From positions 62,001 to 126,000 of the IMG/VR virus record IMGVR_UViG_3300027833_000013: 64,000 nucleotides of DNA; one strand, given 5' to 3'. The DNA is from a virus. The notes under the pieces are model-generated. The model saw only the letters and a list, made by a program, of their open reading frames with translations. It was not told the DNA's origin and did not search any database. The position numbers and the translations under genes were made by a program. Shown piece after piece: positions 48,172 through 64,000 of this stretch (position 1 is the stretch's first letter; every line of letters begins with the position of its first letter).

Positions 48172-50199
48172 ATGGCATATACTATTAACTTTACAGATTT
48201 TACAAATAAAGGTAGCATTACAGTTGAAGACAATACCTTAAATGTACAAACTAGTTTAAGTTTTCCTGGAAGACAGACTACTGCTTACGGTACTGCACTT
48301 AACGAAAACTTTTTACATATATTAGAAAATTTTGCAAACGTAACTGCACCAAGTAACCCTGTTGAAGGACAAATTTGGTACGATAATACTCCAGGTAGTG
48401 AACAGTTAAAAGTATACGACTCAACTCAATGGGTTGCATCCGGTGGCTTAAAGAAAGCACTAACATCGCCAGAGGCAGCAAACAGCGTAGTTGGTGATTT
48501 ATGGGTAGACACTGATAACCAACAGTTATATTTGTTCACTGGCTCTGGATGGGTATTAGTTGGTCCAGACTTTAGCGGAGGCCTTACTACAGGAGCACAA
48601 TCAGTTGAAATAGTAGGACAAGATAACATTGTGTACAATGCAGTACAAGTTGAAGTTGCGGCTAAACCAGTAGCAATAATTTCAACAGATAGTTTTACTC
48701 CTAAGGCAGTAATTAGTGGGTTTTCACAAATACAGCCGGGGATTAACTTATCTAACACAAATATTTCAGGTGACGGTATACCAAAGTTTGTAGGGCCTGC
48801 AGACCAAGCAGAAAACTTATTAGTTGGTACTACTAAAGTACCGGCAGCAAACTTTTTAAGAAGCGATGCAGTAAGTACAACAAACTTTCAAATTAAAATT
48901 AAAAATGATTCCGGACTATTATTAGGTAGCGGCAATCAGCTTGCACTTGAAGTAGAAGGCGAAGCTGGGGTAATTACACATAACACAAGTGGCAGTAATA
49001 TTGATATTAGAGTTAACAATTCTGGCACAACACAAACAGCAATTAGAATTGATTCAAATACAAACGTTGGAATTAACAACACTGCACCTGCAGAAAGTTT
49101 AGATGTAACCGGAAATATTAAGTTAAGTGGAAACGTATTTGTAGATGGCACTACAGCAAGTTCGAACTTTGGAAATGGCGCATTAGTTGTTAAAGGCGGT
49201 GTTGGCATTGCAGGCAATTTAAACGTTGGCGGCACATTTGATATTGACGGAATACTTACTACACAGAATGTAGCACCAGATTCGCCAAACGTAAGGAATA
49301 TTGGTAACACAGCAAACAAATATTTAGGTATATATGCAACTACATTTAACGGAAACTTGCTTGGTAATGTAACAGGTACAGTTAGTGGCAGAGCAGGTAG
49401 TGCTGATAAATTAGCAAGTAGTACAAACTTTCAAATGACAGGCGAAGTTATTGCTAATCAATTAGTATTTGACGGCCAAACAGGCGGCAGTACAAAGGTA
49501 TTTACGACTTCGGTATCAAACGCATTCATTAGTAATAAGACAAGTACAAATAACACTGTATCTGATGACGAATTCCTATTAAACCGAACAACAGGCACAA
49601 CTGGTCTTTATAGAGTTAGTAGAAATACACTATTAGCAAGTGTACCAACTAACCCAGTAGGTGTGTTAATGCCATACGCTGGTAGAACAGCACCTGCACA
49701 TTGGCTACTTTGTGATGGTTCAGAAGTACTACAATCAGATTATCCATTTTTGTTTACATTAATTGGGTTTGATTATAAGCAATCTAACTTGTTAAGCGAT
49801 AACGGCGTATTAAAATTTGCATTACCTGATTTAAGAGGCCGTAGTGCAGTTGGTTTAGATAATATGGGCGGCGATGCCGCAGGCAGAGTTACTGGATTAC
49901 GTGGTTCAGAAATTGGTAACAGTGCTGGTACAGAAGATGTAACAATTGGACTTAATAATCTACCAGAACACGAACACGATTTAGTTGTTGAGGGAACACA
50001 ATTTTACGCAATACTTGATGCGGCAAAAGGTGCAGAAAGTCCTGCTTCATCTATTACATACGACTCCCCAACAGGAAGCGGCCAAGGGCAAGCTGTTTCA
50101 ACTAGTGGCGGAGTAGCAGGCACAACGGGCACAGCAATAGATACAATGAATCCGTTTATGTCGATGAATTATATTATCTACACTGGAAACATAACATGA
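48172..50199 (+). CDS. Tail fibre with C-terminal tail-collar domain (fibre paralogue 1)
   Basis: A 675-aa protein. The N-terminal module (SLSFPGRQTTAYGTALNENF, FANVTAPSNPVEGQIWYDN, then SVVGDLWVDTDNQQLYLFTG) recurs in the next two genes and probably attaches to the same baseplate site. The middle has beta-repeat fibre text (LDVTGNIKLSGNVFVDGTTA). The C-terminus is a tail-collar domain: VGVLMPYAGRTAPAHWLLCD near 495, FALPDLRGRSAVGLDNMGGD near 545, LNNLPEHEHDLVVEG near 595, then MNPFMSMNYIIYTGNIT. This is the layout of T4 gp12-type short fibres and many receptor-binding fibres; HEH residues bind metal in gp12. The stop overlaps the next start. Confidence 0.85.
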   Translation: MAYTINFTDFTNKGSITVEDNTLNVQTSLSFPGRQTTAYGTALNENFLHILENFANVTAPSNPVEGQIWYDNTPGSEQLKVYDSTQWVASGGLKKALTSPEAANSVVGDLWVDTDNQQLYLFTGSGWVLVGPDFSGGLTTGAQSVEIVGQDNIVYNAVQVEVAAKPVAIISTDSFTPKAVISGFSQIQPGINLSNTNISGDGIPKFVGPADQAENLLVGTTKVPAANFLRSDAVSTTNFQIKIKNDSGLLLGSGNQLALEVEGEAGVITHNTSGSNIDIRVNNSGTTQTAIRIDSNTNVGINNTAPAESLDVTGNIKLSGNVFVDGTTASSNFGNGALVVKGGVGIAGNLNVGGTFDIDGILTTQNVAPDSPNVRNIGNTANKYLGIYATTFNGNLLGNVTGTVSGRAGSADKLASSTNFQMTGEVIANQLVFDGQTGGSTKVFTTSVSNAFISNKTSTNNTVSDDEFLLNRTTGTTGLYRVSRNTLLASVPTNPVGVLMPYAGRTAPAHWLLCDGSEVLQSDYPFLFTLIGFDYKQSNLLSDNGVLKFALPDLRGRSAVGLDNMGGDAAGRVTGLRGSEIGNSAGTEDVTIGLNNLPEHEHDLVVEGTQFYAILDAAKGAESPASSITYDSPTGSGQGQAVSTSGGVAGTTGTAIDTMNPFMSMNYIIYTGNIT

Positions 50200-52010
50200 G
50201 CTATAAATTAAATAAAACAGACGGAACTTTACTTGTAGATTTAATAGACGGATCGATAGATACAGCTAGTACATCACTTTCGCTAGTAGGCAGGAACTAT
50301 TCAGGATTTGGTGAAATAATAAATGAAAACTATATTAAGTTATTAGAGAGTTTTTCAAATTCATCAAGTCCACTTAACCCTATTGCAGGACAAGTTTGGT
50401 GGGACACATCAGATGCTAGATTAAAAGTATATACAGGAACAGCATTTAATCCAGTTGGTGCTCCGTTTGTGCAATCTTCACAGCCTAGCATGGTTGCTGG
50501 CGATTTATGGATTAACAATAACGAAGATCAGCTGTATTTCTTTGATGGTGCAGGTGTTCCTACACTAGCAGGACCAGCATATTCGTCACAACAAGGTAAG
50601 TCGGGCTTTATAATAGTATCAAGACTTGATACACAGAGCAGGAATAGAACATGTGCTGACTTATATGTTGGTGGAACGTTAATGGCTGTAATGAGTGCTA
50701 TTGAATTTACTCCTGCAACAGCGATTTCTGGTATAACTGGCAATGTTAAAAAAGGTATTAATGTTATTGATACTAATTCTTCAACAGGATTTACGTATCA
50801 AGGAGTTGCAGACAAAGCACTAAACTTAATCAAGGCAGATGGTACTTCTGTTAGTGCAGACAGTTTCCTTTCATCAATAGCAGACGGTTCAACAACCGGA
50901 TCATTGCAAGTATTAAACTCCAATGGTATTACAGTAGGACCAAATGCTAATCAGATTATGAAAATAGTCGGTAATAGCTTTGTTACAGAAAATGCTAGAA
51001 TTGATGATGACTATATTATTAAAGTTACTAGTTCTGCGGCAGGATCACAATCTATTGATGCAGTTCATATTGATACATCTAATAAGCGTGTCGGTATATT
51101 TCAATCTACTCCGTTACATACATTAGACGTAACAGGCGATATGCGTGTTACCGGTAACTTAATTGTTGAAGGAGCAAGCGCAAGCATTGACGTTTCGACA
51201 TTAAGAGTTGAAGACAAACAAATAGAACTTGCTATTACAAGTGATAGTACATTACTAAATGATGCAGGCGTTGATGATGCAGGCATACTAGTTAGAGTAA
51301 CTGGTGATGATAAGAGTTTTACTTGGAAGAATGCAACTAAAGCATGGACTTCGTCAGAGCACATGGACATTGTAACAGGCAAGTCATATAAAATTGGCGG
51401 AACTAATGTATTATCAGCAACAACACTAGCTAGTAGTGTAACAAGTGCAACAGGATTAACTACTGTTGGTACATTAGGTAACTTACAAATTGACAATACT
51501 AATATTAATGATGCTACTATTACAACAACTGCATTAGGATTAACAATTACTAGTGCCGATACTATTACTATTAGCAACAGTAGAAGAATTACTGGCGTAG
51601 GTGCGCCATCGGTTGGAGCAGACGTTACGAACAAAACGTATGTAGATCAGCAAATTGCAGGCTCTTCTATTGCGTTTGGTTTAGACATTACTGGATTGAA
51701 CGATACACAGATAGCACTAATCATTAATGACTTAGTTCCGGCAAGTGGCGTATCAAATGGCACAGTAGCTAGAATACACGGCACATCACTCGGCGGAGCA
51801 AATGTTACAGGTATTGATGTTACGGCAGTAACGACTAAATCATTCATAACAGTTGATAAAAACGGAACTGAAAATCAATCCGTTTTACAAGACATTGGAT
51901 TCACTAATGCAACAGGTACAGTAAGCGTAACAGTTACACGAAGTTTGAAGCAATTTATTACCTCCGGTGGTAATTGGACATTTGATCAAAACTTAACAAG
52001 TAGCGTGTAA
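50196..52010 (+). CDS. Tail fibre (paralogue 2)
   Basis: A 604-aa protein. It repeats the N-terminal module of the preceding gene (SLVGRNYSGFGEIINENYIK, SNSSSPLNPIAGQVWWDTSD, then VAGDLWINNNEDQLYFFDG). The middle has HTLDVTGDMRVTGNLIVEGA near 308 and a DVTNKTYVDQQIAGSS segment near 475. Its C-terminus differs from both neighbours: no tail-collar or ADLAEKY-type domain, ending TSGGNWTFDQNLTSSV. It starts in a 4-bp ATGA overlap with the first fibre. It probably forms another fibre segment or an alternative fibre on the same attachment point. Confidence 0.8.
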   Translation: MSYKLNKTDGTLLVDLIDGSIDTASTSLSLVGRNYSGFGEIINENYIKLLESFSNSSSPLNPIAGQVWWDTSDARLKVYTGTAFNPVGAPFVQSSQPSMVAGDLWINNNEDQLYFFDGAGVPTLAGPAYSSQQGKSGFIIVSRLDTQSRNRTCADLYVGGTLMAVMSAIEFTPATAISGITGNVKKGINVIDTNSSTGFTYQGVADKALNLIKADGTSVSADSFLSSIADGSTTGSLQVLNSNGITVGPNANQIMKIVGNSFVTENARIDDDYIIKVTSSAAGSQSIDAVHIDTSNKRVGIFQSTPLHTLDVTGDMRVTGNLIVEGASASIDVSTLRVEDKQIELAITSDSTLLNDAGVDDAGILVRVTGDDKSFTWKNATKAWTSSEHMDIVTGKSYKIGGTNVLSATTLASSVTSATGLTTVGTLGNLQIDNTNINDATITTTALGLTITSADTITISNSRRITGVGAPSVGADVTNKTYVDQQIAGSSIAFGLDITGLNDTQIALIINDLVPASGVSNGTVARIHGTSLGGANVTGIDVTAVTTKSFITVDKNGTENQSVLQDIGFTNATGTVSVTVTRSLKQFITSGGNWTFDQNLTSSV

Positions 52011-52043: not shown

Positions 52044-53513
52044 ATGGCATACACAATTAATAGATACGCAGGTACTACTTTAGCTACTGTACAAGACGGA
52101 ACAGTAGATGCAACTTCCGATTTACGGTTTGTAGGTAAGAACTATGCAGGTTACGGTGAAATACAGAATGAAAACTTCTTATTCTTACTTGAAAATTTTA
52201 GTGGAGCATCACAACCACCAAAGGCTATATCAGGACAAGTTTGGTATGACAGTGCAGTACAAAAATTAAAGTTTTATAATGGTACTAAATTTAAAAATAC
52301 CGGCGGAGCAGAAGTATCGGCGACACAGCCAGTTGGATTAACATCAGGCGACTTTTGGTGGGATAGTGGTAACAATCAGTTATATGCATATGACGGAACA
52401 TCATTTATATTAGTAGGACCACAAAGTACAGGTAGTGGCGTTACACAGATGCAAAGTAAAACTGTTAAAGATACTACGTCAACAAATAGAAGTGTTATTG
52501 CCGCGACAATTAACGATGAAGTAGTTTATTTAATCAGTAGTATTGAATTTACTATTGATAGTACAGATGCATCAAATGCAATTACAGGATTTGATGTAGT
52601 TAAGAAAGGCCTTACTTTAATTAACACTACAGTGGCCACAAACGGAGTTACAAGTTCTGATCATGTGTATCATGGCACGTCATCAAACGCATTAAGATTA
52701 GGTGGAAATTTAGCAAGTGATTACTTACTAAGTTCTTCAGGTTCATTTACAGATGTTGTACGTTTTGCAGATACTGGATATTCAGTAGGCGATAGTAATG
52801 ATTTGCTTATTAAAATTGAAAATGGTAATGACGGTGTAATTGGCAACCAAGTGGGCACTAACAGTATTATTAAAATAAAAGCTAATAATGCATCAGGTTC
52901 ATTAACTCATTCTGCAACATTTACAGCATTAGGAATGACCCCTGCAAGTACTAACGCATTTGACATCGGAGCGTCGGGCAATGTATGGGCTAACGTTTAT
53001 GCAACAAACTTACAAGGTAATGCAACAACTGCAAGTGCTTTAAAATTAAGCGGAACTGTATATACTCCAAATGCTTCGGCAATTGCAAATACAGCGGCAA
53101 TTAGAGATGCATCAGGTAACTTAACAGCAAACTTATTCCAAGGCATTGCAACACAAGCACGTTATGCTGACTTAGCAGAGAAATACACAACAACAGAAGA
53201 ATTGCCAGCAGGTACAGCAGTAGCAGTAGGCGGCGAAGCAGAAGTTCAACCAGCAGTAGCAAGTAATCATTGCATTGGAGTTGTTTCAACTGATCCGGCA
53301 TACATGATGAACAGTGAAGCAGAAGGTCAATATATTGGACTTAAAGGACGTTTACCAGTAAGAGTAAAAGGCCTTGTTAAAAAAGGCCAAGCTGTATATG
53401 CATTAGACAATGGTGTATGTACTACACTTTCAACAACGGCACTGGTAGGAATTGCACTTGAGTCAAGTGATGACATAAACGAAAAATTAATCGAGTGTGT
53501 TTTAAAAGTATAA
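52044..53513 (+). CDS. Tail fibre (paralogue 3) with ADLAEKY-type C-terminal domain
   Basis: A 489-aa protein. The N-terminal module again: RFVGKNYAGYGEIQNENFLF, SGASQPPKAISGQVWYDSAV, then TSGDFWWDSGNNQLYAYDG. The C-terminal third starts ARYADLAEKYTTTEELPAGT near 372 and continues with CIGVVSTDPAYMMNSEAEGQ and GLKGRLPVRVKGLVKKGQAV. This domain is common at fibre C-termini, and related forms in other phages act as intramolecular chaperones or autoproteolytic G2-type domains. Whether it self-cleaves is not clear from the sequence. It is read from a late box 25 bp upstream and is probably co-expressed with the two preceding fibres. Confidence 0.8.
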   Translation: MAYTINRYAGTTLATVQDGTVDATSDLRFVGKNYAGYGEIQNENFLFLLENFSGASQPPKAISGQVWYDSAVQKLKFYNGTKFKNTGGAEVSATQPVGLTSGDFWWDSGNNQLYAYDGTSFILVGPQSTGSGVTQMQSKTVKDTTSTNRSVIAATINDEVVYLISSIEFTIDSTDASNAITGFDVVKKGLTLINTTVATNGVTSSDHVYHGTSSNALRLGGNLASDYLLSSSGSFTDVVRFADTGYSVGDSNDLLIKIENGNDGVIGNQVGTNSIIKIKANNASGSLTHSATFTALGMTPASTNAFDIGASGNVWANVYATNLQGNATTASALKLSGTVYTPNASAIANTAAIRDASGNLTANLFQGIATQARYADLAEKYTTTEELPAGTAVAVGGEAEVQPAVASNHCIGVVSTDPAYMMNSEAEGQYIGLKGRLPVRVKGLVKKGQAVYALDNGVCTTLSTTALVGIALESSDDINEKLIECVLKV

Positions 53514-53516
53514 ATA
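53509..53516 (+). promoter_or_regulatory. Late promoter TATAAATA
   Basis: A perfect late octamer overlapping the stop codon of fibre paralogue 3, 36 bp before the next ATG (53552), with AAGTAAGGAAGAAT as ribosome site. Confidence 0.7.
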
Positions 53517-53551: not shown

Positions 53552-54448
53552 ATGGCGGTAGGCGACTTAATTACAGCGGCACGATATAATAACGCACAAG
53601 CGCGGGTGGCTGCGATTATGGGAGTTGGTGCCACTACTGAAGGATACGGACAAACGTTAGAAAGTTCTCAAGTTAGTACTGCATTAACAGTAACAGCAGA
53701 ACATATTAATGATTTGTATACTGATATTATTAGCGGCAGAATACACCAAACTGGTGCTACTCCTAACAGTATAACACAAATTGTTGTAGGCAATACTATT
53801 GCTGATGCAACTAGTGATGATCCAGACGGAACTGCCAAAGGCTTCCAAGATTACGAAGACTTAATAGCAATACTTGAAGCATCGCCAGGTAGATTTGCAC
53901 TAAGTGCATCACAATCGACTAGCGGAACTGGTGTTACTAGTTCTAGAACAGCACAGTGGAACACAGATGTGTCGACTGTTGTGCGTGTTGATTTTTCATC
54001 ATCGGATGCACGTAGAAATTATTTTAATGCCGGTAGCACAATTAAGTTTGAAGCATCATTAACAAGTCAAAGCGGATCAAAATCTAACGATTGGGCAAGT
54101 ATGTTAACTAATATGGGCACAATTGCAATGGGGTATACTGCTACTACTACAACTGGTACAGGAACAACTAGTTCAATTGGCAATTTTGATCTAACTGGAA
54201 CTAATCAAGTAATATTCCGTAAGCCAGGAACAGGTGTTTACTCTGCAAACGATTATTATGTTTATGCAAAAGCAAACTCAGCTACACAATTAGAATTTAC
54301 AATACTATTCCAAGAAGAAGCGGCAGGTAATCCAAATATCGACGAACAAGTAAACGGTACACTAACTAGTACAGTTAAGTTTACTCGAGCAAGTGGATCA
54401 TATGTTACTACACCAGCACCGAGCTTTGTTACTGTAACTTCACTTTAA
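53552..54448 (+). CDS. Putative virion structural protein closing the late fibre module
   Basis: A 298-aa protein. The N-terminal half is helical (MAVGDLITAARYNNAQARVA, EHINDLYTDIISGRIHQTGA); the C-terminal half is beta-rich with VVRVDFSSSDARRNYFNAGS near 145 and TGVYSANDYYVYAKANSATQ near 228. The 'ARRNYFNAGxxI.F' phrase is one I know from small structural proteins of marine myophages. No enzymatic motif is seen. It is read from its own late promoter. The next gene is separated by a sigma70 promoter, so this is the last gene of the late unit. Confidence 0.7.
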   Translation: MAVGDLITAARYNNAQARVAAIMGVGATTEGYGQTLESSQVSTALTVTAEHINDLYTDIISGRIHQTGATPNSITQIVVGNTIADATSDDPDGTAKGFQDYEDLIAILEASPGRFALSASQSTSGTGVTSSRTAQWNTDVSTVVRVDFSSSDARRNYFNAGSTIKFEASLTSQSGSKSNDWASMLTNMGTIAMGYTATTTTGTGTTSSIGNFDLTGTNQVIFRKPGTGVYSANDYYVYAKANSATQLEFTILFQEEAAGNPNIDEQVNGTLTSTVKFTRASGSYVTTPAPSFVTVTSL

Positions 54449-54451
54449 CCA

Positions 54452-54480
54452 TTGACAACCTTAACTTTTTAGTATATACT
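54452..54480 (+). promoter_or_regulatory. Sigma70-type promoter of the glycosyltransferase/radical-SAM operon
   Basis: Perfect TTGACA (54452-54457), a 17-bp spacer and TATACT (54475-54480) lie 24 bp before the ATG at 54505. A perfect 7-bp inverted repeat (54474-54491) overlaps the -10 and start site. Confidence 0.85.
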
Positions 54481-54491
54481 ATACAGTATAT
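54474..54491. repeat. Operator-like inverted repeat at the -10/+1 of the accessory operon
   Basis: ATATACT (54474-54480), spacer ATAC, AGTATAT (54485-54491). It is placed where a repressor would block host polymerase; it could also form a weak hairpin at the transcript 5' end. Confidence 0.5.
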
Positions 54492-54504
54492 CTAAGGAGT
54501 AACT

Positions 54505-54840
54505 ATGGACGAACGACTAGAAAAAGCATTAGCTGTTAGTAAAGCATTAGAAACACATCAAAATCAAAAAAATATTCTTCATAAGCAGTATAAAGATAAT
54601 TTACTCTATTACTTTGATGGACATAAAGTTAGTGTAGACCTTTCTTTAATTAGTTACTGTACTAATAGAACAGGACCTGTAGTTATTATAGACGATAACA
54701 AGACTCCGACACTTATTGATAACGTTGAAGAATTTAATAAAAAAATAACAGCAATGTACGACACTGCAACACGTAAATACCTTGTTGAATTTAAAAAGAT
54801 TAAATCAAAAAGGTCAGTAGAGGAATTAATCGACCTATGA
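54505..54840 (+). CDS. Small protein of unknown function, first gene of accessory operon
   Basis: A 111-aa protein with a charged helical start (MDERLEKALAVSKALETHQN), a central beta region (LLYYFDGHKVSVDLSLISYC, about 32-51; TGPVVIIDDNKTPTLID, about 55-71) and a basic helical C-terminus (FKKIKSKRSVEELIDL). No known motif is seen. Its ribosome site, CTAAGGAGTAACT, is strong and its stop overlaps the next ATG by four bases. Its lead position suggests an accessory or regulatory role for the enzymes that follow, but nothing in the sequence shows it. Confidence 0.65.
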   Translation: MDERLEKALAVSKALETHQNQKNILHKQYKDNLLYYFDGHKVSVDLSLISYCTNRTGPVVIIDDNKTPTLIDNVEEFNKKITAMYDTATRKYLVEFKKIKSKRSVEELIDL

Positions 54841-55685
54841 CTCAAGGCGTATTGTTATTTGCATATAATTCTAAACATATGGATTATACAAAACAAGCTA
54901 TATATTGTGCAAAACTTATCAAAGAATACCTTGGTAAGGAAGTTGCACTAGTAACTGATAACGAAGAATATATTCAACGTCAATATCCGTTTTATACAAA
55001 GTATATAGATCATGTTATTACAACTGGTCATGAGGATAATGTACAAGAGCGTGTGTACAATGACGGACTGTATCACAGTGATCGCCAACGTTGGTATAAT
55101 ACTAATAGAAGCTCATGTTTTGAATTGACTCCGTTTGACGAAACACTTGTAATAGATACAGATGTTTTAATTTTTAATGACGAATTAAATAGATGCTTTG
55201 ACTCGACAGAAGATTTTCTAATATCTAAAGATTATAACTTTGTTGATATGAAGCGCGACTATTCAGAGTTTAATAAAGTGTCTGATACAACATGTGATAT
55301 GTTTTGGGCAACTGCATTTTATTTTAAAAAAACTGCATTTACAAATGTATTTTTTGATCTTATCGAACACATTAAAGAAAATTGGCATTTCTATAGACTA
55401 GTATATGAAGTTGTAGAAGTTAAGTTTAGAAACGATTATGCATTTAGCATAGCAATACATATGCTTCGAGGCATGAAAGACGCAACTTGGCCATCCCGTG
55501 TTCCTGCAAGCATTTGGATTACTGTAGATAAAGACATACTACATTCAATAAACGATACTAAATTAACCGTGTTATTACACAAAGAATACGACTATCAAGC
55601 AAGTGCAATTTGTGATGCTAATGTACACGTAATGAATAAGTTTTCATTAGAACGTTGCATTGACAAGGTATTTGAAAATGAGTAA
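54837..55685 (+). CDS. GT-A-fold glycosyltransferase-like protein 1
   Basis: A 282-aa protein. It begins with a nucleotide-binding-type strand (TQGVLLFAYNSKHMDYTKQA) followed by VALVTDNEEY, then a DxD-type metal/sugar-nucleotide motif, LVIDTDVLIF with D107 and D109. A YNTNRSS block precedes it, and MFWATAFYFKKTAFTN and FRNDYAFSIAIHML follow, where GT8-like enzymes have acceptor and second aspartate segments. No signal peptide or membrane helix is visible, so it acts in the host cytoplasm. The 279-aa neighbour has the same plan. Donor and acceptor are unknown. Overlap with the preceding gene is 4 bp, with the next 8 bp. Confidence 0.75.
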   Translation: MTQGVLLFAYNSKHMDYTKQAIYCAKLIKEYLGKEVALVTDNEEYIQRQYPFYTKYIDHVITTGHEDNVQERVYNDGLYHSDRQRWYNTNRSSCFELTPFDETLVIDTDVLIFNDELNRCFDSTEDFLISKDYNFVDMKRDYSEFNKVSDTTCDMFWATAFYFKKTAFTNVFFDLIEHIKENWHFYRLVYEVVEVKFRNDYAFSIAIHMLRGMKDATWPSRVPASIWITVDKDILHSINDTKLTVLLHKEYDYQASAICDANVHVMNKFSLERCIDKVFENE

Positions 55686-56517
55686 CGGTGTATGTTTACT
55701 AGCACAAAATAACGATACTACTGATTATATTAGACAAGCCTACGCACTTGCATTAAGCATTATTGCAAAGTCTCCTAAACAAAAAGTAAGCCTTATTACT
55801 AATGACAGTGTGCGTGACAAATACAGAAAAGTATTTGATCAAATCATTCCTATTCCTTGGGACGATAGTGCAACTAAAAGTAACTGGAAAATTGAAAATA
55901 GATGGAAAGTTTATCATGCAACACCTTACAGAAATACTATAGTATTTGATGTTGACATGCTAGTATTAGAGGATTTAGACATATACTGGAATCAGTTACA
56001 AAAAAATAATGTTGATCACGATATACTTTTTACTACGCAAGTGGTCAATTATAGGAACGAGCCTGTAACAAGTAGGTATTATAGAAAAACATTTGATGCA
56101 AACAACTTGCCTAATTTATATTCAGGAATGTATTACTTTAAAAAAGCAGAAACTACAAAACAATTTTTTGGCTTGCTAAAAACTGTTATGTGGAATTGGG
56201 GCGACTTTTACAAGATCAGTCTAAGTAAAATACCTCAAGAATGGTGTAGCTTTGATGTGTGTACTGCAATAACTGCAAAGTTATTAGATAGGACATACAC
56301 TATCGGAGACAACAATAATATTCTTGAGTTTACCCATATGAAATCGAGATTACAGAATGTTGATATTGATGATAAATGGACTAAGTCTCTTTTTGTAGAT
56401 TTTAATAAAGATCTTAATTTAATAGTTGGCGGAATTAAGCAGTCAGGAATATTTCATTATGTTGAAGATGAATTCTTAACAGACGAAATAGTTAGTATAC
56501 TAGAGGAAGCAATATGA
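55678..56517 (+). CDS. GT-A-fold glycosyltransferase-like protein 2
   Basis: A 279-aa protein starting at the ATG at 55678 (MSNGVCLLAQNNDTTDYIRQ). An in-frame ATG six codons upstream lies deeper in the previous gene. It shares the plan of the preceding protein: VSLITNDSVRDKY, then TIVFDVDMLVLEDL with D91 and D93, LYSGMYYFKKAETTKQFFGL near 147 and EWCSFDVCTAITAKLL near 190. The FDxD motif suits a metal-dependent nucleotide-sugar transferase. Two adjacent paralogues may add different sugars in sequence. It is translationally coupled on both sides. Confidence 0.75.
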   Translation: MSNGVCLLAQNNDTTDYIRQAYALALSIIAKSPKQKVSLITNDSVRDKYRKVFDQIIPIPWDDSATKSNWKIENRWKVYHATPYRNTIVFDVDMLVLEDLDIYWNQLQKNNVDHDILFTTQVVNYRNEPVTSRYYRKTFDANNLPNLYSGMYYFKKAETTKQFFGLLKTVMWNWGDFYKISLSKIPQEWCSFDVCTAITAKLLDRTYTIGDNNNILEFTHMKSRLQNVDIDDKWTKSLFVDFNKDLNLIVGGIKQSGIFHYVEDEFLTDEIVSILEEAI

Positions 56518-57140
56518 GTTACTATGCGTATTACAATGAAAAATGCGAAGTTACACAGATATCTAATGAGCCAGATCTGTCTACGAACGACATGTATATT
56601 TTAATTGATGAAGAAATGTTTATTGCATTTGCTAATGAAAAAATTAATTATATCAATTATAAAGTTATAAGCGGAAAGTTAACACTTAAAGCAGAAATTG
56701 AATTAGAAAAATATACTGACTCAAGAATCCCAATTGAACTTACTGATACATTAATAGAAAACTGCATGGTAGTAACACAAGATAAAAAAAATAAACATTG
56801 GTTTGCACAGTGTTATCTTAGTAGTGATGTTATAGAAAACTTTCTACTTATGCCAAAAGAACAAATTGAAAAAAAGATATTTACATTTTATGTAACAGCA
56901 AAAGACAACAGATTTATTTTACTTGATACAATAAAAATACCTGCAAAGTTTGTCCTCACAAAGAATGAAGGATGGCACACTGAAGCAACTAGTGCAGATA
57001 CTGGAGATGTGGTTGAAGTATTTACTGCACCGGCGTATACTATACCTAATATAGACAAAGAAATAGTAACTCAGGATGTTAGATTACTCGTCAGAAGAGA
57101 CTTTTTAACCTATCATCATAAAGTAGGAGAACTTACATGA
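56514..57140 (+). CDS. Unknown protein in the accessory operon
   Basis: A 208-aa protein that I do not recognise. The N-terminal part (MSYYAYYNEKCEVTQISNEP; DMYILIDEEMFIAFANEKIN) looks like a small beta-sheet domain of the type seen on phage-encoded accessory proteins. The middle and C-terminal parts are beta-rich (VIENFLLMPKEQIEKKIFTF near 120; IVTQDVRLLVRRDFLTYHHK near the end). No cysteine cluster or catalytic motif is visible. It overlaps both neighbours by ATGA junctions and is therefore expressed with the glycosyltransferases. A binding or scaffolding role is a guess. Confidence 0.6.
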   Translation: MSYYAYYNEKCEVTQISNEPDLSTNDMYILIDEEMFIAFANEKINYINYKVISGKLTLKAEIELEKYTDSRIPIELTDTLIENCMVVTQDKKNKHWFAQCYLSSDVIENFLLMPKEQIEKKIFTFYVTAKDNRFILLDTIKIPAKFVLTKNEGWHTEATSADTGDVVEVFTAPAYTIPNIDKEIVTQDVRLLVRRDFLTYHHKVGELT

Positions 57141-58057
57141 AAATTATAGATTATGATATTATATACTTGTCATACGACGAGCCAAACGCAGAAAAAAACT
57201 ATGCAGACCTATTAAGTAAAGTGCCTTGGGCAAAACGGGTGCATGGTGTAGAAGGCAGTGATGCCGCACACAAAGCATGTGCAAACCTAAGTGAAACAGA
57301 TCGTTTTATTACAGTAGATGGCGACAACATTATTAATGCAGAGTTTTTAGGACAAGAACTTGACTTTGATGATCATGCAGATTTAGAACACAGTGTAATT
57401 AGTTGGTGCGGCAGGAATATAATTAACGGATTAATGTACGGCAATGGTGGATTAAAATGTTGGCCAAAGCAGTATGTGTTAGATATGAAAACACATGAAA
57501 ACGCAGAAGCAGACAACCCGCATGCACAAGTTGACTTTTGCTGGGATCTAAAATACATACAGCAAAACAGTTGGTATAGCGATGTACATAATAATGAAAC
57601 TGCACTACAAGCATGGAGGGCAGGGTTCCGTGAAGGTGTTAAGATGTCATTAGATCAAGGAGTGCGACCAACTAAAGAAGCTTTCTTACAAGGCCATTGG
57701 AAAAACTTACATAGGTTGTGGGTGTGGTTAATGGCAGGCGCTGATGTAGAAAATGGACTATGGGCTATTTATGGTGCTCGAGAAGGATTATATATGACAA
57801 TGTGTACAGATTGGGATTATGTACAAGTTAGGGATTTTGAATATTTAAACGAGTACTGGAATAAAACAGTTAGTGTATATATAAATGACGACAACTTGTT
57901 AGAATCAATTCAACGGTTAGGCAACAGTCTTATTGATGAATTAGAAATACCCATTGCTAAGAATCCTTTAGATGCACAACAAAGTAAGTTCTTTAAAGAA
58001 GTTTACCAGAATCCGAGTAGGAATGCACGACAACAGTTTGTGATTGATCCTGAATGA
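57137..58057 (+). CDS. GT2-like glycosyltransferase candidate
   Basis: A 306-aa protein. Its start IIDYDIIYLSYDEPNAEKNY and WAKRVHGVEGSDAAHKACAN (about 31-50) match the opening of GT2-type nucleotide-diphospho-sugar transferases, and DRFITVDGDNIINAEFL (about 55-71) supplies the D-x-D equivalent DGD. The block HAQVDFCWDLKYIQQNSWYS near 135 and many Trp residues later (HWKNLHRLWVWLMAGADVEN) are unusual for the family. Similar proteins occur in marine myophages. No membrane segments are seen. It sits between the unknown 208-aa protein and the first radical SAM gene with ATGA overlaps on both sides. Substrate unknown. Confidence 0.7.
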   Translation: MKIIDYDIIYLSYDEPNAEKNYADLLSKVPWAKRVHGVEGSDAAHKACANLSETDRFITVDGDNIINAEFLGQELDFDDHADLEHSVISWCGRNIINGLMYGNGGLKCWPKQYVLDMKTHENAEADNPHAQVDFCWDLKYIQQNSWYSDVHNNETALQAWRAGFREGVKMSLDQGVRPTKEAFLQGHWKNLHRLWVWLMAGADVENGLWAIYGAREGLYMTMCTDWDYVQVRDFEYLNEYWNKTVSVYINDDNLLESIQRLGNSLIDELEIPIAKNPLDAQQSKFFKEVYQNPSRNARQQFVIDPE

Positions 58058-59424
58058 GTAACGAACAACGTATAGAAGAATTAAAACTAAAAAAAGATCT
58101 AATAAATTCTGTTAGTTGTAGTTTCTGTACGGCTAAGTGGTTACAAACAACCCTTATGTTACAAAATGGATATAACCATAGTTGCCATCACCCGGCACCG
58201 CATAAAATTCCATTAGAAGAAATAGAAGCAGATCCCGCAGCCTTGCACAATAGTAAGTTTAAAAAAGAACAACGTGCTATGATGTTAAAAGGTGACCGCC
58301 CTTCGGAATGTGATTACTGTTGGAAGATTGAAGATTTAGACAAAGATTATTTTTCAGACAGACATTATAAAACAGCAGACAACTGGGCATGGGACAGATT
58401 TGAAGATATTGCTAAAAGCAATCCACAAGATAATGTATATCCTAGTTACTTAGAAGTTAGTTTTTCAAATGCTTGTAATTTTGCATGTGCTTACTGCTCG
58501 CCTGAAATTAGCAGTAAGTGGATGGAAGATATAAAACAAAACGGTGAGTATCCGGACGGTGCTCATAACTTAGATTATTTAAAGCAAGCTGGAAAATTTC
58601 CATATGCAAACAACGAAGACAATCCGTATGTAACAGCATTTTGGAAATGGTTTCCTGATGCACTTCCGCATTTAAAAGTTCTACGTATTACAGGCGGCGA
58701 ACCTACAATGAGTAAAGATACTTGGAAGTTATTAGATTACATAATTAATAATCCACAACCTCAATTAGAAATTGCAGTTAATACAAATTTAAATGTTCCA
58801 GCAAAGCTAATAGATAAATTAATATACTATAGCGGCGAGCTTGAAGGTAAACTTAAAAAGTTTGACATATACACAAGTGCTGAAGCAGTTGGTGACCAAA
58901 ATGATTATGTAAGAGATGGGATGAATTACAAAGTTTGGATGACTAATGTACATCGTATGTTGTATGAAACTAATAGTACTGTAGCAATAATGACAACTAT
59001 TAATATTTTAAGTTTGCCTAGCTTTGCTAAATTTATACAAGACGTTATGGAACTTAGAAAAGATTACAATTTAAATTTTGAACACAATAGAATTCCGTTA
59101 AGCATTAACTATCTTAGATGGCCTTTGCATTTACAAACTATACTATTAGATAAAGAACAACGTGTAAAGTACGCTAATGAAATTGAGAGTACATGCGAGT
59201 CTTGGCTCAAATATTACAGTAAAGAAAAATATGCTAGAATTTACTTAGAAGAATTTGATCAAATAAAACGGTTGTGTAACTATCTTAGAAACACAGAACC
59301 AGCTATTCAGTATCGTGGTAACTTTTGCAGATATATACATGCATACGATAAGCGTCGAAACAAAAACTTTAAAGATACTTTTCCAGAGTACTCAACATTA
59401 TTAGAGGATTGGCATGCCAGCTAA
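58054..59424 (+). CDS. Radical SAM protein 1 with N-terminal auxiliary cysteine cluster
   Basis: A 456-aa protein. The canonical CxxxCxxC is CNFACAYC (C141, C145, C148), with LRITGGEPTMSKDTW (GGEP) near 222. An N-terminal cysteine set, C22, C25, C44 (SCHHP), C86 and C89 (SECDYCWKIED), comes before the radical SAM core; twitch/SPASM enzymes usually hold auxiliary iron-sulfur cysteines after it. These enzymes cleave SAM to start radical chemistry on peptides, sugars or small molecules. Here they follow glycosyltransferases, so sugar or peptide modification is plausible. It is about 40% alike by eye to the next gene in its first 150 residues. The 11-bp overlap with the next gene couples them. 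Confidence 0.88.
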   Translation: MSNEQRIEELKLKKDLINSVSCSFCTAKWLQTTLMLQNGYNHSCHHPAPHKIPLEEIEADPAALHNSKFKKEQRAMMLKGDRPSECDYCWKIEDLDKDYFSDRHYKTADNWAWDRFEDIAKSNPQDNVYPSYLEVSFSNACNFACAYCSPEISSKWMEDIKQNGEYPDGAHNLDYLKQAGKFPYANNEDNPYVTAFWKWFPDALPHLKVLRITGGEPTMSKDTWKLLDYIINNPQPQLEIAVNTNLNVPAKLIDKLIYYSGELEGKLKKFDIYTSAEAVGDQNDYVRDGMNYKVWMTNVHRMLYETNSTVAIMTTINILSLPSFAKFIQDVMELRKDYNLNFEHNRIPLSINYLRWPLHLQTILLDKEQRVKYANEIESTCESWLKYYSKEKYARIYLEEFDQIKRLCNYLRNTEPAIQYRGNFCRYIHAYDKRRNKNFKDTFPEYSTLLEDWHAS

Positions 59425-60859
59425 AGAAGATGAAACATTGCTACAGTACAGGCAACGTATAATAGATCCAAAGAGTACTAGCTTCTGTGGTGCAAAATGG
59501 TTTAATGCAACTACTTGGTTAGGTAGTGGCACAACTGCTAGTTGTCACCACCCGCCGGCACATCAGATTCCATTAGAAGAAGTAGAAGAAAACTACACAG
59601 CAATTCACAACACTAAACATAAGAAAGAGATGCGTAGGCAAATGCAAACGGGCGAACGCCCTGCAGAGTGCGAGTATTGTTGGAAAATGGAAGATATGAA
59701 AAAAGATGCAGTAAGTGATCGCACCTTTAAAACTATTATCTATACTGACGAAGAACTACAGGCTGCATATGATGCAGACTGGAATGAAAACACAGGTCTT
59801 AAAACGTTTGAAATTGCGTTTGATAGAACTTGTAACTTAGCGTGTTCGTATTGCAATGCTAGTTTTAGTACTACATGGGCAAAAGATATTAATAAGAATG
59901 GTCCTTATGAAAACTTAGTCAGTGATGGCGCAGGTGCGTTTAAACACAATGGTGATTGGGCCGCTCCGTACGATAATGATGCAGACAATCCTTATATACA
60001 GGCATTTTGGAAATGGTGGGATAACGGCCTTGCAGATAGTTTAGATGAACTACGCATTACAGGTGGCGAACCACTAATGAGCGGCAACACTTGGAAACTA
60101 TTTGATTGGTATTCTAAACAGAAATCAGATATGCGATTTGCTATTAACTCGAACTTAATTGCAAAAGAAAGCATTATTAATAAGTTGATTGAAAAAGCCC
60201 AAGGAATTAAAAAGTTCCACATTTATACTAGCTGTGAAGCAGTTGGTGAACAGGCTGAATACATCCGGGACGGGTTAGTTTACGATCAATGGGTAAACAA
60301 CGTAACACGTATTTTAGATGAAACTGACGTAGAGCTACATTGCATGATGACTATTAATAGTTTATGCTTGTTTAGTATTACAGAATTTCTTGATCAAATC
60401 TATACGCTAAAAGAACGTACAGGAACAAAAACGCCGACAGTAAGTTTAAACTTATTACGTTTTCCAAGTTTCCAAAGTCCTTTAGCATTGCCAGTACATC
60501 TTAAAGATTATTGCTACAATAAACTAAATGATTGGTATAACGTAAACAAGCACAAAGCGTTATGGCACGAGCATGAAAAAGCAAGCATCGAACGTTTAAT
60601 AGATTATCTAGTTACTGTAGATGCTCCGCATAGACGCACGAGCAATCCTGTAACACTATGGCGCGACTTTAAAACATTTTATCAGCAATATGATGTACGT
60701 AGAAATAAAAACATAAACGTGTTTCCAAAAATCCTAACAGATTGGATAGAAAGTATTCCTGATACAGATGCAAGTATTACAGAACTTGCAGAAAAAGAAG
60801 GATGGATATTAAATCCTGATAATAAGAATATTGCCAAAGGACTAGCAACATATGACTAA
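59414..60859 (+). CDS. Radical SAM protein 2 (paralogue of the preceding)
   Basis: A 481-aa protein with the same plan: N-terminal C25, C44 (ASCHHPPAHQIPLEE), C86 and C89 (AECEYCWKMED), then CNLACSYC (C140, C144, C147) and LRITGGEPLMSGNTW. In place of the first copy's CxxC it has only SFCGAKW, so one cysteine is absent. The TSCEAVGEQAEYIRDGLVYD block after residue 270 mirrors SAEAVGDQNDYVRDGMNYK in the first copy. Tandem duplication with divergence is evident. The two may act on different positions of one substrate or form a heterodimer. The C-terminus adds an extra segment ending GWILNPDNKNIAKGLATYD. Confidence 0.88.
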   Translation: MPAKEDETLLQYRQRIIDPKSTSFCGAKWFNATTWLGSGTTASCHHPPAHQIPLEEVEENYTAIHNTKHKKEMRRQMQTGERPAECEYCWKMEDMKKDAVSDRTFKTIIYTDEELQAAYDADWNENTGLKTFEIAFDRTCNLACSYCNASFSTTWAKDINKNGPYENLVSDGAGAFKHNGDWAAPYDNDADNPYIQAFWKWWDNGLADSLDELRITGGEPLMSGNTWKLFDWYSKQKSDMRFAINSNLIAKESIINKLIEKAQGIKKFHIYTSCEAVGEQAEYIRDGLVYDQWVNNVTRILDETDVELHCMMTINSLCLFSITEFLDQIYTLKERTGTKTPTVSLNLLRFPSFQSPLALPVHLKDYCYNKLNDWYNVNKHKALWHEHEKASIERLIDYLVTVDAPHRRTSNPVTLWRDFKTFYQQYDVRRNKNINVFPKILTDWIESIPDTDASITELAEKEGWILNPDNKNIAKGLATYD

Positions 60860-62105
60860 AGATAATTTTTGTGTAGCACCGTGGATGCATTTACACGTTA
60901 TTAACGATGGCCGGGCATTTCCTTGTTGTCAAACACCTTTAGAAGATAAACATGCATATGGCAATGTAAGAGAAACTGCAATACATGATATCTTAAACAG
61001 TACTAAAGCTAAAGGCATGCGCAAAGATATGTTAACAGGTGTGCCATTACCTTCTAGTTGTGAGCGATGCACATCTAAAGAAAAGCACGGATTTGGTAGT
61101 ATGCGCACTGGCATGAATCAAAAGTGGTTACCTCAAGTACAAGACGAAGTAGACGCAACTCATGCAGACGGAACAATAGACAATCCTGTAATTAAAAATT
61201 GGGATTATAGATTTAGTAACTTTTGTAATCTTGCTTGTCCAACTTGCGGTCCATTGTTCAGTACACAATGGCATGCTGATTATAAAAAATTATTTCCTGA
61301 CTATCCAATGACCGAAAAGGCACTAGTTGATCTAAAAGATGCAGATTTATTTTGGAGTGATTTTTCAAAATATGCTAACCATGCAAAAGAAATTCATATT
61401 GCAGGCGGCGAACCATTTATGATGCCCGAAAATAATAAAGTGTTAACTGCATTAGAACAAGAAGAAAATTACGATATTGCAATACGATATAGTACAAACT
61501 GTACAGTATTAAAGCAAGGAAAAGAAAATATTCTAGACCGATTACAGAAGTTTAGTTATATACATCTTAGTTGTAGTATTGATGCCGCAGGCGATGCTTT
61601 CGAATACATTCGATATAAAGGTAAGTGGGACGTTGTTTTAAATAATTTAAAAGAAATTAGACAAAGTGGCCACAACTATTGGATTCATCCTACAGTAAGT
61701 ATATTAAATATTTTTAGAATTACAGAGTTGCACGAAGAACTTTGGAACGCAGATATTATACCAGCAAAACGAGTACATTATAATGCCGACGGAACTGGTG
61801 CAGAATTTCACATAGAAAACTACTGGGTTGACAGGATGCACTTTAATCCATTATTTGTTCCTGAATATTATAGTATGACAATAATGCCAGCACACCTTAA
61901 AGAGCAGGCCGCCGATAAAATTACAACTTATGGCAAACGACTAGAGAAGGAACATAGTATTCCGTTCCATGGCTGGCAAGCCTTAATTGATTTTATGTAT
62001 CAGGCAGATGACAGTCATTTGTATGATGAATTTTTAAGTAAAACACACAATTTAGATAAATTACGTGGCAATGATTTTTATAAAATTAACAAGGAATTTA
62101 AATAG
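60852..62105 (+). CDS. Radical SAM protein 3 (twitch-type)
   Basis: A 417-aa protein. It begins with the 'FCxxPW...G...PCC' form: NFCVAPWMHLHVINDGRAFP (C7), then C25, C26 (PCCQTP) and C70, C73 (SSCERCTSKE), before CNLACPTC (C125, C129, C132) and IHIAGGEPFMMPENN near 195. This variant is the commoner phage/bacterial type annotated as twitch-domain radical SAM. It is more distant from the two preceding genes than they are from each other. The SCSIDAAGDAFEYIRYKGKW block near 240 matches the SAEAVGD...YVRDG block in copies 1 and 2. It overlaps copy 2 by 8 bp and the SGNH gene by one base. Confidence 0.88.
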   Translation: MTKDNFCVAPWMHLHVINDGRAFPCCQTPLEDKHAYGNVRETAIHDILNSTKAKGMRKDMLTGVPLPSSCERCTSKEKHGFGSMRTGMNQKWLPQVQDEVDATHADGTIDNPVIKNWDYRFSNFCNLACPTCGPLFSTQWHADYKKLFPDYPMTEKALVDLKDADLFWSDFSKYANHAKEIHIAGGEPFMMPENNKVLTALEQEENYDIAIRYSTNCTVLKQGKENILDRLQKFSYIHLSCSIDAAGDAFEYIRYKGKWDVVLNNLKEIRQSGHNYWIHPTVSILNIFRITELHEELWNADIIPAKRVHYNADGTGAEFHIENYWVDRMHFNPLFVPEYYSMTIMPAHLKEQAADKITTYGKRLEKEHSIPFHGWQALIDFMYQADDSHLYDEFLSKTHNLDKLRGNDFYKINKEFK

Positions 62106-63106
62106 TGAGTAAAAAAAGTAAGCTAGAAAAGGTATCTCAATCGCAACTAGCAAAGACCATAGTAACGAACAAGACAATACAGAAAGATAATTACGACAGT
62201 CCTGGTAGCGATTGGGATAATGTTTCCCACTTAGGGGTTGATCATCTAGATACATCAGCAGTTTCACCTTTTCGAGTTAAATCATTTGATGATCTTAGAA
62301 ACTATGGCCCGTGGCAACCACTGCACCTATTAAGAAAACGTGCAGGCGAAACTCGTGAGAATGTATCATTCGATGTGCCCTGGGTACACGAAACTGAAAT
62401 TCCATATCTTAAAGAACAGCCTTGGAAATATAGAATAAATGAATACGGATTTAGAGACGAATGGAAATTTAAAACTAAACGTGCAAACATAGGCTACTTT
62501 GGATGCAGTATGACATATGGTGAAGGCGTCGATACCCCAGATCTATGGAGTACTCATATAACAAATGCGTATAAGTTAACAGGGTTAAACTTTGGTGTAG
62601 GCGGCGCCGGTCCTTTGCGTGTAGCAAGAACATTTGCCGCAGTACAGCAAACAATGAAATTAAAGTATGCTATAATAATGCTACCACAAATCTCAAGAGT
62701 AGAACTATGGCAATACAACAATTATCAGCAACCAAAACAGCATCCTAGATTACATACTATAAACTTAATTCCTAATTTTCCACCTAGTCCTACAGATTTT
62801 ACGGGAGGAGATGACGTGTATAATGATTACTTTAAAGTTATGACAGATGAACAATCAATTAGTCAGTGTGTACAAGCGTGTAATTGGATAACTCAAACAG
62901 CAAGAGCAAACAAGACTCGGGTACTATTCTGTTCTTGGGATCCGTTTAGTTTATGGGCTATGCACAATGCAGGAGTTCCTAATTTGCATAATAAAATGTT
63001 TAAAAGGCTAGACTTAGGTAGAGATCAAATGCACCCGGGCCCGGAGTCTAATTTACAATTTAGTAAAAGTATAAGAAGGTGGATAGATGCTAACCCTTGG
63101 CTTTAG
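62105..63106 (+). CDS. SGNH/GDSL-type hydrolase
   Basis: A 333-aa protein from a GTG start at 62105 that overlaps the previous TAG. After about 105 residues of helical lead-in comes KYRINEYGFRDEW, then the nucleophile block NIGYFGCSMTYGEGV with S135. The Gly-type block LNFGVGGAGPLRVART follows near 158, and D307-x-x-H310 (GRDQMHPGPES) near the end completes an SGNH layout. Such enzymes are esterases or acyltransferases that often remove or add O-acetyl groups on glycans. No signal peptide is visible. Its place after glycosyltransferases and radical SAM genes suggests trimming of a glycan or glycolipid product. Confidence 0.8.
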   Translation: MSKKSKLEKVSQSQLAKTIVTNKTIQKDNYDSPGSDWDNVSHLGVDHLDTSAVSPFRVKSFDDLRNYGPWQPLHLLRKRAGETRENVSFDVPWVHETEIPYLKEQPWKYRINEYGFRDEWKFKTKRANIGYFGCSMTYGEGVDTPDLWSTHITNAYKLTGLNFGVGGAGPLRVARTFAAVQQTMKLKYAIIMLPQISRVELWQYNNYQQPKQHPRLHTINLIPNFPPSPTDFTGGDDVYNDYFKVMTDEQSISQCVQACNWITQTARANKTRVLFCSWDPFSLWAMHNAGVPNLHNKMFKRLDLGRDQMHPGPESNLQFSKSIRRWIDANPWL

Positions 63107-64000
63107 AAATATACACGGCGTTAGTACTAGTATTAATTTACTGCCAGATAACACCGAAACATCATTAGTATGGCAATCTGCATTAGACACTTTATTAGAA
63201 ACGCACAATGATAAAATATTTCAAAAGAACTTTAGTCTATTAGGACATCCTACACATAATAGATCTAAACAGCACATGATAAATGATCTAGAACGAAGTG
63301 TTAACATTGTAAACATACATACAGAATACGAAATTGACGAAGACTTTTCTACATTTGATCAAGAAACATTAAACAGATTGCATCATCATTTTGAAATATT
63401 ACAAGGACAACTTTGGAACCCCAGTTCATTTTTAACTACAGCGTCTGGAGAAGTGCGGTGTGCAATATGTTATTTAAATCATTGCTGTCATGAACTAGAA
63501 GCATATTATGATTCGTATGAAAAGGAATATACTAACTATAACGGTTATTTTTACTATAACTTGTTAGGTATAACAGATAGAACTGACATGCCGCTAGGAA
63601 TAAAAAAGCAATTTACTACTGACATAACTGACGGCATGGTATATTTACATTATGCTCAAACAGGTAAAACTTGGTACGAAGCATACTTAGATAACGATTT
63701 AGAAATAGACCCTAGCAATATATCAGAACATAGGGTTATCACAGGCGAATTTAATTTATACTCTGGACCAGGGTTTAGTTTTCCAACAGACAGTAATTTT
63801 ACATCATGGTTAGAATCAAAAAATGTAGATCCTAATGATTCTGATTTAGCATTAGGATATGCACCAGTTGCAACAGTAGATGTACCATATACTGAACTAC
63901 AAGAAATATTAAAAGAATACGATGACTTTCATAGTATTGAATTTAATGGTAAAAAAATTGAATATAACTATAGACATACCGACCTAGAGTATGTTATAAT
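63087..64000 (+). CDS. Unknown protein, partial (runs off right edge)
   Basis: The frame is open from the ATG at 63087 to the window end, 304 codons with no stop, overlapping the SGNH gene by 20 bp. It starts MLTLGFRNIHGVSTSINLLP. Visible text includes HNRSKQHMINDLERSVNIVN near 58 and LNRLHHHFEILQGQLWNPSS near 94, and VRCAICYLNHCCHELEAYYD near 122, which holds four cysteines and His residues that could bind metal. I recognise no family. It continues the accessory operon without a gap. Reading frame and codon use fit its neighbours. Confidence 0.7.
   Translation, partial: MLTLGFRNIHGVSTSINLLPDNTETSLVWQSALDTLLETHNDKIFQKNFSLLGHPTHNRSKQHMINDLERSVNIVNIHTEYEIDEDFSTFDQETLNRLHHHFEILQGQLWNPSSFLTTASGEVRCAICYLNHCCHELEAYYDSYEKEYTNYNGYFYYNLLGITDRTDMPLGIKKQFTTDITDGMVYLHYAQTGKTWYEAYLDNDLEIDPSNISEHRVITGEFNLYSGPGFSFPTDSNFTSWLESKNVDPNDSDLALGYAPVATVDVPYTELQEILKEYDDFHSIEFNGKKIEYNYRHTDLEYVI

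Follow-up and report, generated by a model that had tools for sequence, protein, structure and literature searches.

A fibre-linked cluster of glycosyltransferase and radical SAM genes behind a sigma70-type promoter in an uncultured T4-like phage

Among the closest described counterparts of the gene cluster considered here is one that Zaragoza-Solas et al. (2020, PMC7029224) named the host recognition cluster (HRC) in pelagimyophages, which are T4-like marine phages. It is a region with a mean size of 44.6 kb that lies beside the tail fibres, between VrlC and gp14, and holds cassettes of radical S-adenosylmethionine (rSAM) genes as well as GT8 glycosyltransferases (GTs), for which a change of the host surface was proposed; the region was called hypervariable and non-syntenic. 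The present cluster begins in a stretch of 64,000 nucleotides, hereafter the window, that comprises positions 62001–126000 of the 169,459-bp IMG/VR virus record IMGVR_UViG_3300027833_000013 (window position + 62000 = record position), and its genes are numbered g1–g42 from window position 54505. The source is an uncultured T4-like phage, probably marine, whose T4-like markers include the major head protein (phrog_138, E 3e-103), the portal (phrog_213, E 2e-113) and a baseplate wedge protein (phrog_10646). As in the HRC, fibres and GT8s are combined in a large region (35.8 kb) by T4-like structural genes. A gene for a virion structural protein of 4933 residues (phrog_10938; window 32736–47537, + strand) stands just upstream of the fibre region. 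In contrast to the non-synteny reported for the HRC, the core and the backbone of the present cluster are colinear between loci and only slots vary; further differences are a conserved sigma70 promoter, a g1-GT8-GT8-GT-A core, an rSAM slot, the order of the backbone and a peptide gene. The cluster occupies the place of the HRC but is not simply hypervariable.

A second precedent is provided by T4-like environmental viral genomes that carry IscU/ATC and up to 12 rSAM genes (Nishimura et al. 2017, PMC5332604). The present phage resembles these in its 12 rSAM matches and its IscU/NifU_N gene, but in the part of that paper used here the rSAM proteins are treated as iron-sulfur (Fe-S) clients of phage assembly proteins, and no operon, GT core or pathway is described. 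Both GT8 and rSAM cassettes in a tail fibre host recognition cluster (2020) and a T4-like genome with 12 rSAM genes (2017) have therefore been published. A preliminary description of the window named its gene combination the strongest candidate for an undescribed system; absent from the open-licence literature searched were the promoter and its conservation, a GT core of fixed content with a defined cargo slot, the order of the backbone, and the pairing of the small gene g12b with g14.

Extent and promoter of the cluster

To the preliminary description, at least ten mostly overlapping genes at the end of the window looked like a complete pathway. All ten open reading frames (ORFs) are present, and the nine junctions within the window overlap by 4, 8, 4, 4, 4, 11, 8, 1 and 20 bp, but the ten genes represent only the 5' quarter of a run that extends beyond the window to record position 152337. 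This run spans 35.8 of the 169 kb of the genome, about a fifth, and comprises about 43 genes (42 listed ones plus a small gene that was hidden); overlaps are found at 34 of 41 junctions, the sole gap of more than 25 bp is one of 212 bp between g12 and g13, and only g32 is on the minus strand. Two rSAM family searches gave 12 matches in the 169-kb phage, all 12 of them inside the cluster; a QueE-like gene outside it, which matches phrog_2076, was missed by both. The features of the window that bear on the cluster are as follows.

48172..50199, +, protein of tail collar/tail fibre type ahead of the module (matches tail fibre/collar families of PHROGs, E 2e-19)
50196..52010, +, fib_n3, fibre or other virion structural protein (phrog_6002, E 4e-14), conserved ahead of the module in many homologous loci
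52044..53513, +, fib_n2, tail fibre protein (E 3e-18 to the tail fibre family phrog_19602), syntenic
53509..53516, +, TATAAATA, motif of the T4 late-promoter type ahead of fib_n1
53552..54448, +, fib_n1, final gene of fibre type before the module (26–27% identity to a PA5oct-like phage protein)
54452..54480, +, sigma70-type promoter of the cluster, TTGACA-17-TATACT (top site of a 14-kb scan, 11/12)
54505..54840, +, g1, conserved small protein of 111 residues, fold like DUF4376 tail fibre chaperones
54837..55685, +, g2, GT8 (glycogenin-like) glycosyltransferase, invariant D107 and D109 (DxD)
55678..56517, +, g3, GT8 (glycogenin-like) glycosyltransferase
56514..57140, +, g4, 208 residues, optional, being present in 15 of the 80 g6-scan loci
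57137..58057, +, g5, predicted glycosyltransferase of GT-A fold (GT2-like) that borders the rSAM slot on the left
58054..59424, +, g6, twitch-domain rSAM protein (NF033640, E 1e-96)
59414..60859, +, g7, twitch-domain rSAM protein paired with g6 (NF033640, E 6e-90)
60852..62105, +, g8, twitch-domain rSAM protein (NF033640, E 3e-104; Pfam SPASM and Radical_SAM)
62105..63106, +, g9, putative SGNH-type hydrolase/acyltransferase, GTG start
63087..64000, +, g10, runs off the window; 315 residues in full (record 125087–126034)

The consensus scan of 14 kb found 45 sites where 59 were expected, which is not above chance. A chance promoter is nevertheless rejected on grounds of conservation, since a sigma70 match of at least 11/12 lies upstream of g1 in 52 of 72 non-redundant homologous loci, as compared with 0.75% of random 85-mers; the spacer is 17 bp in all 52, the site lies 47–58 bp before g1, and the same test upstream of g2, g3, g6, g7 and g12 gave 0. 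Of 69 loci, 26 have the exact motif TATAAATA upstream of fib_n1, against a background of 0.35%, and 1 has a sigma70 site there. Because of these two distributions, the promoter type is seen, at the level of motifs, to switch from late to host-type exactly between the fibre gene and g1, and this switch is conserved. The proposal that the genes from g1 onward are one unit on their own sigma70-type promoter and encode a coordinated pathway, as opposed to scattered auxiliary genes, is supported by the ordered synteny and gene fusions described below.

Core, exchangeable slot and downstream backbone

Homologous loci (L numbers in the following) were obtained from two independent scans, with g6 and with a g5 profile (at least 598 viral matches), and the two yield identical architecture. 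Fifty-nine loci of the g5 scan extend far enough upstream to be scored; 58 of them contain g1, 58 g2 and 58 g3, and fib_n1 occurs in 56. The corresponding loci of the g6 scan contain g2 and g3 in 41 of 41 cases and g1 and fib_n1 in 39 of 41. Judged by gene content, the invariant core is composed of the fibre genes, the small fibre-chaperone-fold protein g1, two GT8s and two GT-A enzymes.

The profiles of g2 and g3 match only glycogenins in the PDB (E 0.007 and 1e-6, respectively), the GT8 match spanning only the first ∼110 residues, and the two proteins are paralogous (hhalign E 2e-32); the start of g3 is most likely the ATG at 55678, not the TTG at 55660. By profile and, in g2, by the invariant DxD motif, they are placed in family GT8, with sugar transfer to a protein acceptor as a putative activity. 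A PDB sequence-profile search with g5 gave nothing significant, but its AlphaFold2 model (predicted local distance difference test score, pLDDT, 88) matches GT2 and HddC-type GT-A folds of the PDB in Foldseek with probabilities of 0.9–1.0, although with template modelling (TM) scores of only 0.2–0.35; it also matches viral glycosyltransferases, and an acidic motif with D61 and D63 is invariant. The model thus indicates that g5 is a GT-A glycosyltransferase, and the same is predicted for its paralogue g11 (32% identity).

DUF4376 proteins include an experimentally demonstrated fibre chaperone, encoded directly downstream of the fibre in Alteromonas phage V22 (PMC7289586, PMC10579305). The model of g1 (pLDDT 91) matches viral DUF4376 proteins in Foldseek (E 2e-4 to 1e-3; best TM score 0.83, to an unnamed phage protein), and g1 shares with the chaperones V22 gp27 and A5 gp9 its predicted fold and its position behind a fibre-type gene. 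It differs from them in that it opens a sigma70 enzyme operon and has no sequence similarity to them; as there is no sequence match to the Pfam family or to V22 gp27, it is not filed as a member.

The interval between g5 and g11 can be as short as 19 bp or as long as 9.8 kb and contains 0–6 rSAM matches, with none in 35 of 96 intervals. By this measure the rSAM genes g6–g8 occupy an exchangeable slot there, and the idea that they are the essential core is rejected, many phages keeping the GT core without them. The gene set of the preliminary description, two paralogous GT-A-like enzymes (here GT8s), a GT2-like enzyme (here of predicted GT-A fold), three rSAM proteins and a protein with SGNH motifs, is accordingly confirmed as to what is present, the three rSAM genes being intact, but these three are often absent elsewhere. 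In some loci with an almost empty slot, g5 and g11 form a single ORF (L165, L174, L181, L191, L198 and L201), and single ORFs of g5, g11 and g12 occur at L172:7950–11300 (1117 codons) and L182:7992–11165 (1058 codons); joint action of these enzymes is implied by the fusions, found in at least eight loci in total. Pairwise protein distances define one block of fibre, g1, g2 and g3 (r 0.67–0.85) and a separate block of g6 and g7 (r 0.96), whereas those of g5 and g6 correlate less well (r 0.54) despite their physical overlap, and it should be noted that such correlations are partly expected from physical linkage and are uncorrected for relatedness. In L010–L012, g5, g6 and g7 are 97–99% identical to those of the present phage but g1–g4 only 74–88%, a contrast that, as far as identities can tell, is one of recent cassette exchange. 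A second group of g6-g7 loci (e.g. L044–L047 and L062–L067) is without g1–g5 and has more rSAM genes and other flanks.

The proteins g6, g7, g8, g16 and g17 score far above the cut-off of NF033640 (N_Twi_rSAM, NCBIfam), a hidden Markov model with no assigned reaction; here its members form the tandem pairs g6-g7 and g16-g17, and among bacteria the nearest relatives found occur as arrays in Bdellovibrio-like predators. Because the CxxxCxxC motif and four twitch cysteines are invariant in g6 (22 sequences), g7 (21) and g8 (9), these three are probably active enzymes. Further rSAM genes of the cluster are g14, g16–g18, g24, g27 and g30–g32; a viperin assignment for g30–g32 was rejected because the scores are far below the cut-off.

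A scan with g21 gave 30 loci, including one on a contig of 518,643 bp, in which the order g11-g12-g14-g16-g17-g18-g21-g23-g24-g31 is kept in 688 of 699 pairs and the strand in 205 of 206 genes. On this evidence of synteny, g12, g12b, g14, g16–g18, g21, g23 and g31 are a conserved downstream backbone. Members of the g5/g11 family are present on 14 of 20 g21-type contigs and members of the g2/g3 family on 11, including the 519-kb contig (both copies in 10 and a single partial match in 1), and because the contigs are fragments these counts are lower bounds. A third block, g34–g40, is intact in four loci. The core module or the backbone is also found in contigs of jumbo phage size, L080 (424,529 bp), L081 (523,836 bp) and L252 (518,643 bp), which implies transfer between very different phage lineages.

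The gap between g12 and g13 is filled by the hidden gene g12b, an unlisted TTG-started gene of 78 codons (L006:12647–12883; record 127646–127882, equivalent to window positions 65646–65882 and thus beyond the window). Across 35 diverse phages its identity is mostly 70–86% (lowest, 61%), with 22 invariant columns, and the ratio of nonsynonymous to synonymous polymorphism (pN/pS) of 0.15, with synonymous sites near saturation, shows in these alignments that g12b is under purifying selection. Relatives number at least 475 viral matches. The upstream neighbour is g12 in 71 and g11 in 8 of 79 loci, 66 of 69 loci have a g14-type rSAM/SPASM gene no more than 4 kb downstream, and the g12b stop is usually overlapped by 8 or 4 bp by the next start. 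The layout resembles that of a precursor of a ribosomally synthesized and post-translationally modified peptide (RiPP) beside its maturase, the modification itself being putative: as in RiPP precursor/rSAM-SPASM pairs, g12b is small, conserved and translationally coupled to an rSAM/SPASM gene, but it belongs to no named family, is conserved over most of its length and lies inside a phage GT cluster. Comparison of g12b with the PDB gave spurious matches only, and no relative was found in GenBank phages; a match in Rhizobium phage Y68 (E 0.6), which lies among replication genes, was judged to be due to chance.

Candidate products of the pathway

The cluster probably builds a modified glycan or glycopeptide for host recognition or exclusion, a glycoconjugate of the surface or of the virion being preferred. 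That the product changes the glycan or surface of the host envelope is the reading that we adopt, although tentatively. In such a pathway, g2, g3, g5 and g11 would assemble a glycan on a cytosolic or inner-membrane acceptor, and the rSAM, pyridoxal phosphate (PLP), 2-oxoglutarate-type, methyl and acyl enzymes would tailor it, with the g12b peptide, modified by g14, perhaps forming part of the product. The product would be made from the start of infection and would alter the envelope glycan to which competing phages or the phage's own progeny bind. A role of this kind would explain both the co-inheritance with fibre genes and the variable tailoring steps, and it may be what the host-type promoter, the fibre linkage and the exchangeable tailoring genes reflect. 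Nearly all proteins of the cluster appear to be soluble.

A number of points weigh against a change of the host surface. The gtr operons of serotype conversion encode the flippase GtrA and the bactoprenol glycosyltransferase GtrB, whereas the cluster showed none of the flippases, polymerases or membrane GTs that are typical of serotype conversion, and hydropathy analysis of g1–g42 revealed no multi-pass membrane protein, the one clear membrane segment being in g35. The profiles of g2 and g3 match glycogenin, which glycosylates protein, and not lipopolysaccharide enzymes such as LgtC. In a subset of loci (e.g. L054, L057 and L059) a late-type motif like TATAAATA replaces the sigma70 site, which is a better fit to decoration of the virion; expression from the start of infection is itself deduced from the promoter type, and the distance correlations carry the qualification given above.

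In decoration of the virion, the GTs and rSAM enzymes would modify the adjacent fibre proteins or other virion proteins, with g1 as chaperone, and thereby alter adsorption or shield the particle, an alternative that we consider rather unlikely but stronger than the others. It accounts for the near-invariable place of the module directly behind the fibre genes, the correlation of GT8 and fibre distances, the lack of clear membrane enzymes in the module, the resemblance of the GT8s to a protein glycosylator and the loci with late motifs. The fold of g1 is like that of the DUF4376 chaperones, of which that of V22 is encoded directly downstream of its fibre (PMC7289586), but g1 has no sequence similarity to DUF4376, and most loci have the sigma70 promoter and not the late motif of the fibre genes. 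The tailoring part is, to our knowledge, far larger than that of known virion glycosylation loci, and we know of no rSAM tailoring in the virion glycosylation of mycobacteriophages. In the latter, according to work cited in PMC12619734 (Freeman et al. 2023), phage GTs modify phage proteins; for the present cluster a protein target is only putative.

A different product would result if g12b gave rise to a RiPP-like peptide or a cofactor derived from a peptide, with g14 and further rSAM enzymes carrying out the maturation and the GTs the glycosylation, which appears doubtful; with a similarly low likelihood, such a product would be a small molecule with the host or competitors as its target. The conservation of g12b (pN/pS 0.15), the g14-type gene within 4 kb in 66 of 69 loci and the ordered multi-enzyme backbone are in its favor. 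However, conservation extends over most of g12b, which is not so in the majority of RiPP precursors, although those of the PQQ and mycofactocin type are exceptions in this respect; no transporter or peptidase was recognized in the cluster, and many loci have the GT core without rSAM slot genes. In the most specific form of this proposal, which we regard as improbable, g12b would be matured by g14 and interchangeable pairs of twitch rSAM enzymes and glycosylated by the GT8/GT-A core; that an ordered, early-expressed pathway of hundreds of uncultured phages makes this phage-specific, glycosylated RiPP-like product, which would lack a counterpart in sequenced phage isolates, for host recognition, exclusion or envelope remodelling is, likewise, unlikely. 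If either a glycoconjugate or a radical-modified peptide is made, the pathway would in our judgement be among the largest biosynthetic pathways of phages, a source of new rSAM chemistry and a testable mechanism for host recognition or competitor exclusion in uncultured T4-like and some jumbo phages. The g12b-g14 and g6-g7 pairs are small enough for direct testing.

It is very unlikely that the region is a hypervariable host recognition island that gathers unrelated auxiliary genes with no common pathway: cassette exchange is real (L010–L012), slots vary in size and content, and HRCs have been described as hypervariable (PMC7029224), but this explanation is already weakened by the colinearity of 688 of 699 pairs over 30 loci, including that of the 519-kb contig, and by the gene fusions and the overlap of 34 of 41 junctions. 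Synthesis or attachment of a hypermodified DNA base, for which the QueE-like gene elsewhere in the phage (phrog_2076, E 3e-49), the QueC-like PP-loop genes in the island and the ability of phage GTs to glycosylate DNA (a reference cited in PMC12619734) might be invoked, is the least probable explanation, because the cluster is tied to fibres and not to replication genes, its GTs are of the GT8/glycogenin type and the QueE-like gene lies outside it.

Relatives and remaining genes

Parts of the cluster recur in hundreds of uncultured viral contigs. Among 50,697 GenBank phage records no close relative was found for any of seven module proteins searched, a search in which g2, g4, g6, g9, g10 and g12 were left out: g1 (with a homologue as query), g3, g5 and g11 had no match, and g7 and g8 had matches of only ∼25% in Vibrio phages. 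In contrast, the halogenase g38 has relatives of ∼30% identity in cyanophages and HTVC008M. In cellular genomes, relatives of g7 are almost all from Bdellovibrio-like predators (26–55% identity), where they occur as rSAM arrays or single genes and the GT core is absent. Chromosomal contigs of Bdellovibrio-like metagenome-assembled genomes (MAGs; L090–L122, e.g. L092:10001–19677) carry twitch rSAM genes in tandem, with up to six or seven in an array. Homologues of g10, for which a PDB sequence-profile search gave nothing significant, are present in 13 of 144 Bdellovibrio-class genomes, and in at least two predator loci (L110/L203 and L209; L110:10010–12322) the homologue adjoins a g6-like rSAM gene, which provides an independent link of g10 to these enzymes.

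The fibre-GT-rSAM module was also encountered on MAG contigs assigned to Verrucomicrobia, Rickettsiales, Pelagibacter and Betaproteobacteria (L093, L097, L098 and L099), which are evidently mis-binned phage DNA. Matches to g5 in the SAR11 order are confined to a phage-like contig binned with a Pelagibacter MAG, and a SAR11 cellular origin was rejected because no g5 relative was found in the other 196 genomes of the order.

The assignment of g9 as a putative SGNH protein is by motif: GCS (S135), N162 and D307xxH310-P-G are invariant in 21 homologues, whereas no Pfam match exceeds the cut-off, and a single-protein scan of viral contigs gave no matches, the family being too diverged. The remaining genes with a recognizable function lie downstream of the window.

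g12, methyltransferase-like by sequence inspection, with no significant Pfam match
g13 and g28, QueC-like PP-loop proteins
g20 and g22, methyltransferases
g21, PLP enzyme (weak match)
g23, HxD...H pattern of 2-oxoglutarate oxygenases, by eye only
g25 and g26, nitroreductases
g33, Asp/Asn hydroxylase
g36, class IV aminotransferase
g38, flavin halogenase (E 8e-75)
g39, IMPDH/GMPR
g40, AMP-binding protein

Three genes on the minus strand of L008 complete the picture. One encodes an IscU/NifU_N Fe-S scaffold (L008:5065–5484, E 2e-53) and is a plausible supplier of Fe-S clusters for the 12 rSAM enzymes. The others are the QueE-like gene (L008:8577–9473, phrog_2076, E 3e-49) and a TGT/DpdA-like gene recognized by motif only (L008:14935–16458), which together point to a possible 7-deazaguanine modification of DNA in this phage.

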